Source: Halobacterium rubrum
GTDB taxonomy: Archaea > Halobacteriota > Halobacteria > Halobacteriales > Halobacteriaceae
Reading direction: 5' to 3'
Length of the DNA stretch: 64,000 nucleotides
Assembly (NCBI RefSeq): GCF_021729015.1
Contig: NZ_JAJQQZ010000001.1
Span: 124,001 to 188,000, forward strand
The position numbers were made by a program, and so were the translations under genes. Numbering within the stretch: position 1 is the stretch's first letter; each line of letters opens with the position of its first letter. The notes under the pieces are model-generated. The model saw nothing but the letters and a program-made list of their open reading frames with translations. It ran no database searches and was not told the origin of the DNA. Positions 2,711 through 22,485 of this stretch are shown one piece after another.

Positions 2711-3688
2711 ATGCCTGCAATCGAGACCGACGGCCTGACGAGGCGCTTCGGCGACCTCACGGCCGTCGACACCCTGGACCTCACAGTCGAGGACGGCGAG
2801 GTGTTCGGCTTCCTCGGGCCGAACGGCGCCGGCAAGTCCACGACCATCAACATGCTGCTGGGGTTCCTCAAGCCGACCGACGGCGCCGCGACGGTGCTGG
2901 GCCACGACGCCGCGGGCCAGTCCCGCGCGGTCCGCCAGCGCACCGGCCTGCTCCCGGAGGGATTCGAACTGTACGAGAACCTCACCGGCCGCGAGCACGT
3001 CGTCTCCGCAATCGACACGAAGAACGCCGACGACGACCCGGACCACCTCATCGAGCGCGTCGGCCTCGACCCCGAGGCCGCCCAGCGGCGCGCCGGCGGC
3101 TACTCGAAGGGGATGACCCAGCGGCTCGCGCTCGCCGTCGCGCTCGTCGGCGAGCCGGACCTCCTCATCCTCGACGAGCCGTCGTCCGGTCTCGACCCGA
3201 AGGGCGCCAAGCTCCTCCGGGAGATCGTCCGCGAGGAGGCCGACCGCGGCGCGACCGTCTTCTTCTCCAGTCACATCCTCGGGCAGGTCGAGCAGGTCTG
3301 CGACCGCGTCGGCATCATGAACCAGGGAGAGATGGTGGCCGTCGACACCATCGACGCGCTCCGCGACCAGATGGGCGCCGAGTCCCTCGTCGCGGCCGAG
3401 GTCGCAGCGAGCCCCGACCCGGACGCGGTCGCGGCGGTCGACGGCGTCCGCGAGGTCACCGTCGACGGCAATCACGTCGAAATCGCGTGCACGCAGCCCC
3501 GGGCGAAGATGCCGGCGCTGCGCGCGCTCGACGACGCGGCCACCGTCACCGACATCGCCGTCGAGGACGCCGACCTCGAGGCGCTGTTCGAGCGGTACAC
3601 CGGCGACGACCCGGGCGACGGCAGCGGCGCAGAGGAGGCCGAAAAAGCGCCCGAGTCCGCCGCGACAGCCGGAGGTGAGGACGTGTGA
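2711..3688 (+). CDS. ABC transporter ATP-binding protein (ABC-2 type exporter)
   Basis: A cytoplasmic ATPase of 325 residues for an ABC-2 type exporter. Visible motifs are Walker A GPNGAGKST (about residues 37-45), a diverged signature YSKGMTQRLALA, Walker B LLILDEPSSGLDP and a switch histidine in FFSSHILGQVEQVCDRVG. The C-terminal 100 residues are a substrate-unspecific extension. GGTGA just upstream (2703-2707) is a good ribosome binding site for the ATG at 2711. The stop overlaps the GTG start of the permease by 4 nt, so the two are translationally coupled. It closely resembles the ATPase at 13286, suggesting duplicated exporters. The substrate is unknown; related pairs are often labelled NosF/NosY, Cu-processing or antibiotic exporters without proof. 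Confidence 0.93.
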   Translation: MPAIETDGLTRRFGDLTAVDTLDLTVEDGEVFGFLGPNGAGKSTTINMLLGFLKPTDGAATVLGHDAAGQSRAVRQRTGLLPEGFELYENLTGREHVVSAIDTKNADDDPDHLIERVGLDPEAAQRRAGGYSKGMTQRLALAVALVGEPDLLILDEPSSGLDPKGAKLLREIVREEADRGATVFFSSHILGQVEQVCDRVGIMNQGEMVAVDTIDALRDQMGAESLVAAEVAASPDPDAVAAVDGVREVTVDGNHVEIACTQPRAKMPALRALDDAATVTDIAVEDADLEALFERYTGDDPGDGSGAEEAEKAPESAATAGGEDV

Positions 3689-19863: not shown

Positions 19864-19930
19864 ACGCGAACGTGCATCCTCGCCGGGCAAATAGCCGTCG
19901 GTGTGTGCACGAACGAGTGTTGGCCACACG

Positions 19931-19936
19931 TTTATA
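19931..19936 (+). promoter_or_regulatory. TATA box of the HNH gene
   Basis: TTTATA, in an AT-richer context, lies 25-30 bp before the GTG at 19961, implying a leaderless transcript of the HNH gene. Confidence 0.55.
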
Positions 19937-19960
19937 CAGGAACGCGACGCCAGCCCACCC

Positions 19961-20857
19961 GTGGCGACGAGAGAGGACTGTCTCAGCGCGCTCGAAGATG
20001 CTGCGAGCCGTCTCGACGAGTCACCGACGAAAGCTCAGTACGAGAGACTCGACATTACGCCCGCTGCGTCGACGATTCTCAGACACTGCGGCAGCTGGAA
20101 CGACGCGAAAGCACAGGCCGGGCTGTCGACGAACCGGTCCACGGGGCCGCGCGTCGAACCCAAGCCCGACGACGTCTCGGTTCCCGACGGCGAGACGTGG
20201 TCGTCACTCAGCCAGGACCAGCGGTGGCACTACCGCAACCGAGACCTGAACGCGCAGCGGTCACGGGACCGGTGACGGCGGCTCCGCGAGTGGCTCCACC
20301 AGTACAGAACCGACCGGTCCGGGTGCGTTCGGTGTGCGGAATCGTCGCCGTTCTGCCTCGACTTCCACCACGTCGACGACACACGAAAACGGCTGAGCGT
20401 CAACGAGATGGTGGCGTCCGGATACTCGCGAGAAACAATCCGCACGGAAATCGAGGACTGTCAACTGCTCTGCGCGAACTGTCACTGGCGGGAACACAAC
20501 GATGCACCGGTAGTGTTGTCCGAACTCGATACGGCCGAACTCGCCGACAGCCCTGGGGACGCGCTGGAAGCACGTCTGCTCGGCGAACGACCCGGGTCGG
20601 TCGACAAGGAGTCGTGGGTTCGCGCCTGGACCTACGCCTACCAGCAGGTCCGTGGCTGTCAGCGCTGCGGTGAAGGAGACCCGGTGTGTCTGCAGCTCCA
20701 TCACCCAGACGACGAAAAGACGGCGGCCGTCGGCGAGATGATTACGAACAGCCGTCCGGTCGAGGCGGTTCACGCCGAAATCGAGAAGACGGCGGTCCTC
20801 TGTGCGAACTGCCACCGGACGGAACACCACCCAGCAACGCCCGCTGCCCTGGACTGA
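19961..20857 (+). pseudogene. HNH endonuclease gene interrupted by a nonsense codon
   Basis: One continuous frame of 299 codons broken only by TGA at 20273-20275 (codon 105). The N-terminal part ([15 protein letters not shown]... ILRHCGSWNDAKAQAGL) resembles the HNH_repeat module that accompanies homing-type endonucleases. After the stop come two successive HNH-like zinc modules: CVRC...DFHHVDD...LLCANCHWREH and CQRCGEGD...QLHHPDD...VLCANCHRTEHH. A CGA-to-TGA change would restore Arg in an Arg-rich run. Either the gene is dead, or the second part (for example from ATG 20408) is translated alone but lacks half of the first module. It sits beside tRNA-Gln in a patch with other mobile-element signs. 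Confidence 0.75.
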
Positions 20858-20902
20858 AACGACAACGTTTAGTGAACCAACCTCGTTTCGTGAGATGCGA
20901 GC

Positions 20903-20975
20903 AGTCCCGTGGGGTAGCGGCCAATCCTGAAGCCTTCTGGGGGCTTCGACGGAAGTTCGAATCTTCCCGGGACTA
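20903..20975 (+). tRNA. tRNA-Gln (CTG anticodon)
   Basis: The acceptor stem AGTCCCG (20903-20909) pairs with CGGGACT (20968-20974), and the discriminator is A. The D arm is GGGT/ATCC. The anticodon stem AAGCC/GGCTT has loop TTCTGGG, with anticodon CTG at 20937-20939. The T arm is GGAAG-TTCGAAT-CTTCC. CCA is not encoded. A TTTAG stretch lies about 33 bp upstream. Confidence 0.9.
20955..20975 (+). repeat. Putative att site, copy 1 (3' end of tRNA-Gln)
   Basis: The 21-nt sequence beginning GTTCGAATCTTCCCGGGACT is repeated exactly at 21076-21096. It covers the T-loop to discriminator of the tRNA, the usual target of archaeal tyrosine-recombinase integration. Confidence 0.65.
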
Positions 20976-21075
20976 CTTCTGGCGACGAGTTGAGCGAGGA
21001 GCCGATAATCCAGATTCGAGCCCTGCGAGTCGCGCGCAGCGAGACGAGAAGCGACAGCGAGCACGTCTCGCTCCG

Positions 21076-21096
21076 GTTCGAATCTTCCCGGGACTA
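21076..21096 (+). repeat. Putative att site, copy 2 (tRNA-Gln 3' end remnant)
   Basis: An exact 21-nt copy of the tRNA-Gln 3' end, 121 bp downstream of the first. Sequence after each copy is also similar (TACTTCTGGCGA after the first, TATTCTCCTGGCGA after the second). The 100 bp between them hold no gene. It looks like the scar of an integrated element or nested insertions. Confidence 0.65.
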
Positions 21097-21271
21097 TTCT
21101 CCTGGCGATCCACGACGAACAGTGTTCCGTCCGTTCGTGTGATTGCTAGCGGTGGTTCCTGCTCGCTCCCGAAGCGGGGGTACCGGGGACTCGCCCGACT
21201 ACTTTCACTTTCACTGCGCGGCAGGATTCGGTACTTGTGGCGGCGGCGCCTCAGACGCTGGCAGGTGACCG
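21097..21271. other. Non-coding spacer after the att repeat
   Basis: No gene is supported here. Together with 20976-21075 the non-coding stretch after tRNA-Gln is about 300 bp. The only local feature seen is a short CTTTCA tandem repeat at about 21202-21214. Confidence 0.4.
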
Positions 21272-21409
21272 ATGGATGGCGAGCACACGGACGCCGGCTG
21301 GCGCGTCAAGTGCCCGCGGGGGCACACGCGGCTGCGCCGGCTCTGCGACGGCCGGTACTACTGCCGGAGCTGCGAGCAGCACTACGACCGCGGCGACCTC
21401 CGGGGGTGA
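21272..21409 (+). CDS. 45-residue zinc-binding microprotein
   Basis: ATG at 21272 encodes a small protein with C-x3-H in KCPRGHTRLRR followed by LCDGRYYCRSCEQHY, enough Cys/His ligands for one zinc. The ligand pattern resembles the C-terminal part of the next gene (PCGHGGLRNRRDEDGYTCGYGGC), which begins 6 nt after its stop. The function is unknown; such mini zinc fingers are common on haloarchaeal plasmids and proviruses. Confidence 0.6.
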   Translation: MDGEHTDAGWRVKCPRGHTRLRRLCDGRYYCRSCEQHYDRGDLRG

Positions 21410-21415
21410 CCGGGG

Positions 21416-21799
21416 GTGGCCGTAGACCCGCGGTCGAACAGCGTCCCGAACGGCGCGCGCAGCGTCCTGCGCGGGAACCCGGACGCGACAGCCCGGCTCC
21501 CGCCGCCCGGCGAGCCGTTCCGGCTCGCGGAGGCGCCCGGTGAAGTCCGGCGGGTCTTCCGGCAGTTCCGCGCGCACGGCGTCCTCGACGTCGTCGAGAA
21601 TCCCAGGGACGAGCCGAAACGCTACCGCACGAATCCGGCCGCCTTCGAGGCCGCCCGCGAGATTCGGGCGAGTCGCGACACGCTGCCCTGCGGCCACGGC
21701 GGACTGCGGAACCGCCGCGACGAGGACGGCTACACGTGTGGGTACGGCGGCTGTGACGCTCGGTTCGACCGGCGGACGGTGCTCGACTGTATCGGGTAG
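21416..21799 (+). CDS. Hypothetical protein with zinc-finger C-terminus
   Basis: A 127-residue protein from GTG 21416. The centre (PGEVRRVFRQFRAHGVLDVVENPRDEPKRYRTNP) looks like a winged-helix segment. The C-terminus has Cys/His ligands in PCGHGG and TCGYGGCDARFDR. This suggests a small DNA-binding regulator, but no named family is recognised. It is paired with the preceding 45-residue gene next to the att repeats, consistent with element cargo. Confidence 0.6.
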   Translation: MAVDPRSNSVPNGARSVLRGNPDATARLPPPGEPFRLAEAPGEVRRVFRQFRAHGVLDVVENPRDEPKRYRTNPAAFEAAREIRASRDTLPCGHGGLRNRRDEDGYTCGYGGCDARFDRRTVLDCIG

Positions 21800-21926
21800 C
21801 GTCTGACGGCCGTCCGCTCTCCGCGGGCGGCGTTTCGGGTGCAACTCACTCACACACGCCACCGGTCGTGATACGGGGTGGACTACATTCTCCCGGAGAG
21901 AACCGCAAGACGAAGAGACGACCACA

Positions 21927-21946
21927 CCCCTTCGTTTCGACTGGAA
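21927..21946 (-). promoter_or_regulatory. ORB-like origin recognition motif
   Basis: The reverse strand reads TTCCAGTCGAAACGAAGGGG. This closely matches the haloarchaeal origin recognition box as I remember it (TTCCA-x-x-x-GAAACGAAGGGG type), the site bound by Orc1/Cdc6. It is set inside an outer inverted repeat CACACCCC...GGGGTGTG (21924-21955). Only one copy is seen and no orc1 gene is in the window, so it may be an origin remnant rather than an active origin. Confidence 0.5.
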
Positions 21947-21963
21947 CGGGGTGTGCTAGCGCG

Positions 21964-22485
21964 TCACTTCTCGACGTCGAGCAGCGCGACGCGCTCGCGC
22001 ACCACGCCGGCGAGGTCGCCGCCCGCCGCAGCCACCTCCGCCGCGCTCACGTCGAAGAACTCCCGGAGCGTCGCCTCGTCGCGTTCCTCCCCCAGCGTCG
22101 GGCGCACTTCGGCGAGCAGGTCGCCCACCGCGTCGGCAGCCGCCGCCTCGCGCTCGTCGGCGTCGGCTGCGCCGTCCGTGTCGGCGGCGACCACGACGAC
22201 GACCGGCTGCTCGCCCTCGCCGACGCCCATCGCCAGCGCCTGCCGGATCTGGCGGCGGCCAGCGGCGTACAGCAGAATCTCGACGGCGCGCTCGCTGGCG
22301 ACGTTCTCCCCGCGCTCGAACGCCCGGCTGGCGTGCGCCACCGCGCTCACGAGGTGCTCGCGGTCCGCGACGTAGCCGGCGTCGAACGCCTGCACCGCCA
22401 CGCCGTGCTCGTCGCCGACCGCGCCGAGGTCGGCGACGAACGCGTCGACGTCCTCGACCGCGGCGACGCCCTCGACGACCCTCAC
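21964..22485 (-). CDS. KEOPS complex subunit Cgi121
   Basis: A 173-residue protein matching the Cgi121 (TPRKB-like) subunit of KEOPS, which with Kae1, Bud32 and Pcc1 makes N6-threonylcarbamoyladenosine at position 37 of ANN-decoding tRNAs. The family segment [25 protein letters not shown] is clear. An acidic insert ([13 protein letters not shown] region) is haloarchaeal. It overlaps the end of hel308 by 4 nt and is transcribed after it. Confidence 0.88.

Follow-up and report, generated by a model that had tools for sequence, protein, structure and literature searches.

The 100 bp that separate two copies of the 3' end of tRNA-Gln(CTG) in the window, a stretch of 64,000 nucleotides (C1:124001-188000) from a 3.07 Mb haloarchaeal genome (G000), are a unit of a recurring family that follows tRNAs. 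The account that we tentatively favour, with a little less than even confidence, is that such units are protein-free hairpin insertions of about 90-215 bp which occupy tRNA genes of the Halobacteria at the T-loop junction 53/54.

A duplicated tRNA end and its spacer

An earlier note on this DNA had described an exact 21-bp repeat of the tRNA-Gln(CTG) 3' end, with similar sequence after both copies and no integrase between them. All of this is borne out. The copies agree at 21 of 21 positions, the second lying 121 bp downstream of the first, which is followed by CTTCTGGCGA as the second is by TTCTCCTGGCGA; the gap of 100 bp leaves no room for an integrase gene. The window's features are as follows.

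20903..20976, + strand: intact tRNA-Gln(CTG) gene (ARAGORN; Rfam RF00005, 49.1 bits at 20903-20975)
20955..20975, + strand: A, the first repeat copy GTTCGAATCTTCCCGGGACTA, tRNA 3' end from G53/T54 to the discriminator
20976..21011, + strand: trailer t, with TTCT directly after the tRNA and no internal pairing in the window's unit
21012..21022, + strand: A', a partial antisense copy of the T arm, AGATTCGAGCC against the reverse complement of GGTTCGAATCT
21023..21075, + strand: H2, the core hairpin GCGAGTCGC...GCACGTCTCGC, which stops just ahead of the second copy
21076..21096, + strand: A'', the exact second copy GTTCGAATCTTCCCGGGACTA of the tRNA 3' end
21097..21110, + strand: TTCTCCTGGCGA, which resembles the sequence after the first copy and runs into the downstream flank

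In a relative without the copy (G018, L121), CTTCTGGCG is found in place of the window's TTCTCCTGGCGA. The covariance model R1, built from 17 sequences of which the window's unit is one, matches this unit at C1:145006-145097 (window 21006-21097; 65.3 bits, E 2.7e-13). As an example of the family the unit is poor, for it folds no better than its shuffles (z -0.46) and its trailer is unpaired. A scan of window positions 20000-22000 against Rfam 15 returned the tRNA itself and two chance-level matches elsewhere (E 3.3 and 3.8), leaving the unit unmatched.

Distribution of the units

When the genome was searched with the tRNA and its downstream DNA, the spacer itself was matched behind tRNA-Gly(CCC) and tRNA-His. 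This genome has 43 RF00005 matches and 44 ARAGORN entries. A copy of the tRNA's own 3' end, matching at 20-24 of 24 bases, lies 63-178 nt downstream of 18 tRNAs, and three further tRNAs have a degraded copy together with the same hairpin; units thus stand behind up to about 40 % of a genome's tRNA genes (18 of 44 entries here). If a near-exact copy is defined by at most 3 mismatches in 21, the four genus genomes hold 18 in 44 (the present genome), 10 in 41, 14 in 41 and 7 in 48 tRNA entries. The 3' end therefore recurs in its own 850-nt flank for 49 of 174 tRNA entries, as against 10 of 5640 pairs in a control in which the 3' end was sought in the 850-nt flank of another tRNA of the same four genomes, which places the repeat beyond chance. 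The earlier note had proposed a comparison of the tRNA-Gln(CTG) flank among relatives. Thirteen genus genomes were compared, the 13th being left out because its flank is cut by a contig edge, and 5 of the 12 with a readable flank have the copy, so that the repeat is not one conserved in all relatives.

At the level of the class, the 17-unit model has matches in 141 of 145 Halobacteria genomes and in 55 of 58 genera, with from one to at least 30 per positive genome (30 candidates were scored). In a draw from the phylum it matches 51 of 53 class members versus 1 of 241 genomes outside the class, and this sole outside match is marginal (E 7.8e-4). The four model-negative Halobacteria genomes are of low GC (0.44-0.58 in the loci examined) and have a copy at 1 of 30 tRNA loci examined, there with a different hairpin.

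A search with the core only, which contains no tRNA letters, yielded 118 stretches or more from the genome collection, and the 80 loci examined among them hold 82 matches. In 70 of these 82 the core lies behind a tRNA of the same strand situated 47-506 nt upstream; the tRNA copy that then comes agrees at 17-22 of 22 bases in 62 cases and at 11-16 in 8. Seven of the other 12 matches are less than 200 nt from the edge of the locus and five are interior. As judged by eye, three interior cores stand behind displaced tRNA 3' halves and one behind a short 3'-end piece, while the fifth is 1.8 kb behind tRNA-Ala.

Two isolated cases may be mentioned. One core hairpin of the present genome (G000:C1:608040-608125, L148; 44.8 bits) is away from the listed tRNAs, between purS and purQ according to gene names read from the translated flanks. 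A metagenome-assembled genome labelled Bacteroidetes (L203) has a tRNA-Val followed by a unit with a 22/22 copy; its contig is probably a mislabelled haloarchaeal one.

Anatomy and folding

The units share a set order, in which the tRNA 3' end (A) is followed by a trailer, a partial antisense arm (A'), a covarying core hairpin and a sense copy (A''). The antisense arm resembles the reverse complement of the same tRNA's 3' end. The usual core hairpin is of the type NNAGTCGC...CGTCTNN, and a few units, e.g., that of Leu-caa, have another hairpin instead. Sizes range from 87 to 216 bp (146 units), and the T-loop start TTCRA/TTCRC comes 8 nt past the core in 72 of 82 core matches. The sense copy is exact in 101 of 140 units, these having been selected at 3 mismatches or fewer. 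Among 49 first copies the 5' edge is sharp, identity stopping at G53 or one base earlier in 39, and the 3' edge is fuzzy.

The consensus of the 17 aligned units of the genome has 19 pairs, in 12 of which both partners have changed in one sequence or more. Two stem positions that lie beside the core, outside the search pattern, are complementary in 81 of 82 matches each, compared to means of 51 and 55 and maxima of 62 and 61 in shuffles; at a distance of four to six bases from the core, stem pairing does not exceed that of shuffles. Folded as circles, most units form two hairpins, one of the 3' end with its antisense and the other of the core, with a mean z of -4.4 and 128 of 146 units below -2 (20 shuffles each). 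At least 12 of the 21 A bases are paired in 143 of 146 such folds, and the antisense T-loop anchor agrees at 6-8 of 8 bases in 134 of 140 units, two counts that lack a chance baseline and should be given little weight.

Another type of double hairpin, with ..GCTCA at its end, connects tRNA copies at around position 59/60 (L154, L155, L005, L058 and further loci of the present genome). Several 3'-end copies (Ala, Gly, Arg) have it nested within them, and a similar insert is found in Glu.

Fit of the units to their tRNAs

Sense copies fit their own tRNA, even where the species has another tRNA-Gln allele. For the antisense arm the fit is partial. Free local alignment of the 13-nt variable part of A' reveals no tRNA-specificity (own mean 11.8, others 11.0), and the own tRNA beats 95 % of the others in just 7 of 140 units. 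In an anchored test of the three antisense bases beside the T-loop, the own tRNA scores 1.98 versus 1.13 for permuted tRNAs (134 units), a value that none of 2000 permutations reaches, although these permutations ignore relatedness. Since the free test is negative and the anchored one positive, if partial, the arm appears to be tailored mainly close to the T-loop.

Within the genus, orthologous tRNAs across species have units that are more alike than those of different tRNAs in one genome, both for the core (38.1 vs 22.2) and for the trailer (23.3 vs 12.3). This points to tRNA-specific lineages of units, and jumps between tRNAs must be rare. Between genera the ortholog excess is small (trailer 14.4 vs 11.9, core 35.7 vs 31.4). 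In the case of tRNA-Phe, trailer sequence is common to the units of Natrinema ejinorense and those of the genus.

Filled and empty sites, arrays and decay

Where the flank that follows a copy is aligned with the tRNA flank of a relative without the copy, agreement can begin at base 1-2. This is so for Arg-cct (87 nt, 88.5 %), Arg-gcg (78 nt, 91 %) and Leu-caa (62 nt, 98.4 %); as these flanks align almost from the first base, the difference amounts to one whole unit. The Gln pair agrees in the same register over 23 nt (95.7 %), with further agreement seen by eye. Other pairs, e.g., Asn, His and Ser-gga, align trailer to trailer, as expected of decayed units. In the four-genome count "empty" means no copy at 3 mismatches or fewer, and core-like sequence without a near-exact copy occurs at least at Met in G147 and at Gly-ccc in G034, where trailer and antisense arm are kept and the near-exact copy is absent. 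Part of the variation is therefore decay, and the count mixes absence with decay. For Met, the relative has core-like sequence farther down, which makes this pair a one-unit difference within an array and not an empty site.

In 2 of the 49 cases, one of them Arg-gcg, identity extends 116 and 135 bases beyond the first copy, meaning that neighbouring tandem units are identical. In Haloarchaeobius sp. FL176 (L165), a displaced tRNA-His 3' half is followed by four more 3'-end copies at successive spacings of 116, 111, 111 and 111 bp. A swap of antisense-core blocks between two Ser-cga units distinguishes Haloferax elongans (L195) from H. larsenii (L210). Whole-unit differences, arrays and swapped blocks together argue that units are gained or lost whole, and that they recombine. 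Precise deletion between A copies could equally account for the clean empty sites; a passage of PMC3119063 reports deletions between short direct repeats in Haloquadratum.

Interrupted tRNAs on a plasmid

The core occurs in two plasmid records, in one of them as part of an ordinary unit behind tRNA-Val. The other, Haloarcula halophila plasmid NZ_CP119561.1 (L423), has a tRNA cluster that adjoins a TROVE-domain gene and includes a tRNA-Cys that a core unit (64 bits) splits at the G53/T54 junction, without any duplicate of the tRNA end. In another tRNA of this cluster the break comes after T-loop base 58 (by eye) and holds a double hairpin of a different kind, one also nested in chromosomal copies. 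The interrupted tRNAs of this plasmid were recognised by eye and not by ARAGORN. The tRNA-Cys case speaks for a junction at 53/54. It also suggests that chromosomal events survive only if they preserve the tRNA. In nine other haloarchaeal plasmid tRNA clusters, the sole model match (23.5 bits, L433) overlaps tRNA-Glu and there is no clear orthologue of the interrupted tRNA-Cys, which leaves the interruption a single case without empty counterpart. No bulge-helix-bulge is evident in the minimum-energy fold of this one tRNA-Cys, a fold that is not unusual (z -1.66). In all, three tRNA genes of the plasmid look, by eye, as if broken by hairpin sequence, at 2929-3066 (T-loop 53/54), 3336-3450 (near T-loop 58) and 2053-2182 (anticodon loop).

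Possible origins

We infer that the units are mobile and, by analogy, that they integrate through a putative folded or circular form. According to the reading that we favour, a unit would be gained by insertion at 53/54, duplicating its target. Insertion would probably proceed via a folded single-stranded or circular form, A pairing with A' to make a double-stranded attachment site, and the recombinase would probably be supplied in trans. Recombination between A copies might then multiply and remove units, and the chromosome would keep just the insertions that leave the tRNA intact. More speculatively, and with confidence that falls well below even, the units could represent minimal mobile elements made of two hairpins, gene-free, tailored to the 3' end of the host tRNA, inserting into the T-loop as folded DNA and present class-wide; dispensable plasmid or viral tRNAs would then be interrupted, and the chromosomal survivors would be those that restore the tRNA.

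The main rival, which we regard as rather unlikely, is a functional RNA trailer, i.e., co-transcribed hairpins, the antisense arm pairing with the 3'-end copy around the core, that act in tRNA maturation, in termination or as a decoy of some tRNA-binding enzyme, with the copy under selection. The fixed order on the same strand behind tRNAs, the compensatory stem changes, the many exact copies (101 of 140 units selected at 3 mismatches or fewer), the partly tRNA-specific antisense arm and the class-wide spread would all suit such a role, but 125 of 174 tRNA entries are without a near-exact copy, relatives differ tRNA by tRNA with some units decayed, the model-negative genomes have a copy at just 1 of the 30 tRNA loci examined and the window's unit is without an Rfam match. 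Unlikelier still is a mutational by-product with neither element nor function, whereby the replication machinery switches templates and slips at tRNA 3' ends, generating tandem and in part inverted copies (sense-antisense-sense) whose arms stay complementary through quasi-palindrome correction. Sense and antisense copies do alternate, trailers are palindromic and tandem units identical, and quasi-palindrome correction can produce compensatory stems. Nevertheless, a core AGTCGC...CGTCT at a set spacing to T54, common across tRNAs and to 55 of 58 genera, is not expected from random switching, and one core of the present genome lies away from tRNAs, between purS and purQ.

An intron-like RNA that inserts in the T-loops of tRNA transcripts, at 53/54 (type I) or about 58-60 (type II), and is copied back to DNA appears improbable. 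It would explain the plasmid tRNAs interrupted directly at 53/54 and near 58 (the second by eye), which we take to be known positions of noncanonical archaeal introns; on chromosomes, however, the tRNAs are intact with the units behind them, and no bulge-helix-bulge is evident in the fold of the tRNA-Cys (z -1.66; one core-unit case). Least probable is that the repeats are attL and attR, left as a scar by a larger integrative plasmid or virus whose body has been lost. The earlier note had read the repeat as the scar of an integrative element and the locus as a decayed integration hotspot. A duplicated tRNA 3' end does flank inserted DNA and relatives do vary, but a remnant of a larger element is unsupported, as mostly is the hotspot, the 100-bp spacer belonging to a family of recurring units whose hairpin covaries. 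In favour of the scar, tRNA 3' ends are a standard attachment site. Passages of PMC7911831, PMC3119063 and PMC3293823 report archaeal elements with tRNA repeats of 13, 22, 43 and 44 bp. As a general account the larger-element scar was rejected: the same core recurs at similar size at dozens of tRNAs, is absent from the viral contigs and phage records searched, and displaced halves lie otherwise. A larger element seems by eye to have displaced the tRNA 3' half at L165, L199 and L228, where the displaced halves are longer and upstream of the units; three of the five interior cores without a nearby tRNA follow such a longer half and one a short piece (by eye).

Three exact core patterns had no match in viral contigs, the phage records searched had no core match, and no free virus or plasmid with this attachment structure came out of the virus and plasmid searches. 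Phage_integrase (PF00589) is present in 12 of 12 genomes searched, including the four model-negative ones (4-8 matches each of these), and no enzyme is thereby singled out. No excision product, circle or recombinase was seen, and no protein could be linked to the units. The searches of open-licence literature turned up no account of the units, which does not establish their absence from print.

Relation to known elements

Integrative elements at tRNA sites (those with integrases of the SSV, pNOB8 and SNJ2 type, and pleolipovirus proviruses) share with the units a direct repeat of the 3' end, an intact tRNA and filled and empty sites. In contrast to these elements, the units measure 90-215 bp, lack integrase and cargo, have an inverted antisense arm, occur at many tRNAs per genome and are not in the virus records searched. 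MITEs, REP sequences and the PATEs of Haloquadratum are likewise short, protein-free, non-coding, hairpin-rich and present many times per genome, but nearly all units lie in tRNA flanks (70 of 82 core matches follow a tRNA); they stand in tandem arrays and derive their arms and flanking repeat from the tRNA ahead. With the noncanonical tRNA introns of archaea the units have in common the 53/54 T-loop junction, and one plasmid tRNA is itself interrupted by a unit; chromosomal units, however, are behind a complete tRNA, and the one case folded has no evident bulge-helix-bulge. CTXphi attP and integron attC each contain the attachment sequence twice, in inverted orientation, and the two can pair to give a double-stranded site. 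The units also have pairable inverted copies, but they are far smaller, target a tRNA end and have no identified recombinase.

If mobile, the units would be among the smallest site-specific insertions known, and would show that a protein-less element can stay matched to dozens of differing target genes. Should they be functional RNA, a sizeable share of haloarchaeal tRNA transcripts would have a structured trailer not described before. In both cases, partial tRNA copies in haloarchaeal genomes should not be taken by default for provirus scars, and T-loop junctions offer a testable path to tRNA gene disruption and intron gain.

Neighbouring genes

The HNH pseudogene that the earlier note had placed next to the repeat is real. 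It is an HNH endonuclease gene with one in-frame stop at window 19901-20857, directly upstream of tRNA-Gln(CTG), with HNH_repeat and HNH Pfam matches in one frame; a link between it and the repeat, such as the note had made, was not shown. An HNH-like frame (by eye) also lies directly upstream of tRNA-Gln(TTG) elsewhere in the genome (L007 1-290). As to the mini zinc fingers of the note, a Pfam scan of three ORFs in 21237-21799 had no match at E 0.01. Close to the tRNA, at window 21964-22485 on the - strand, is a gene that matches Pfam CGI-121 (KEOPS-type kinase binding protein).
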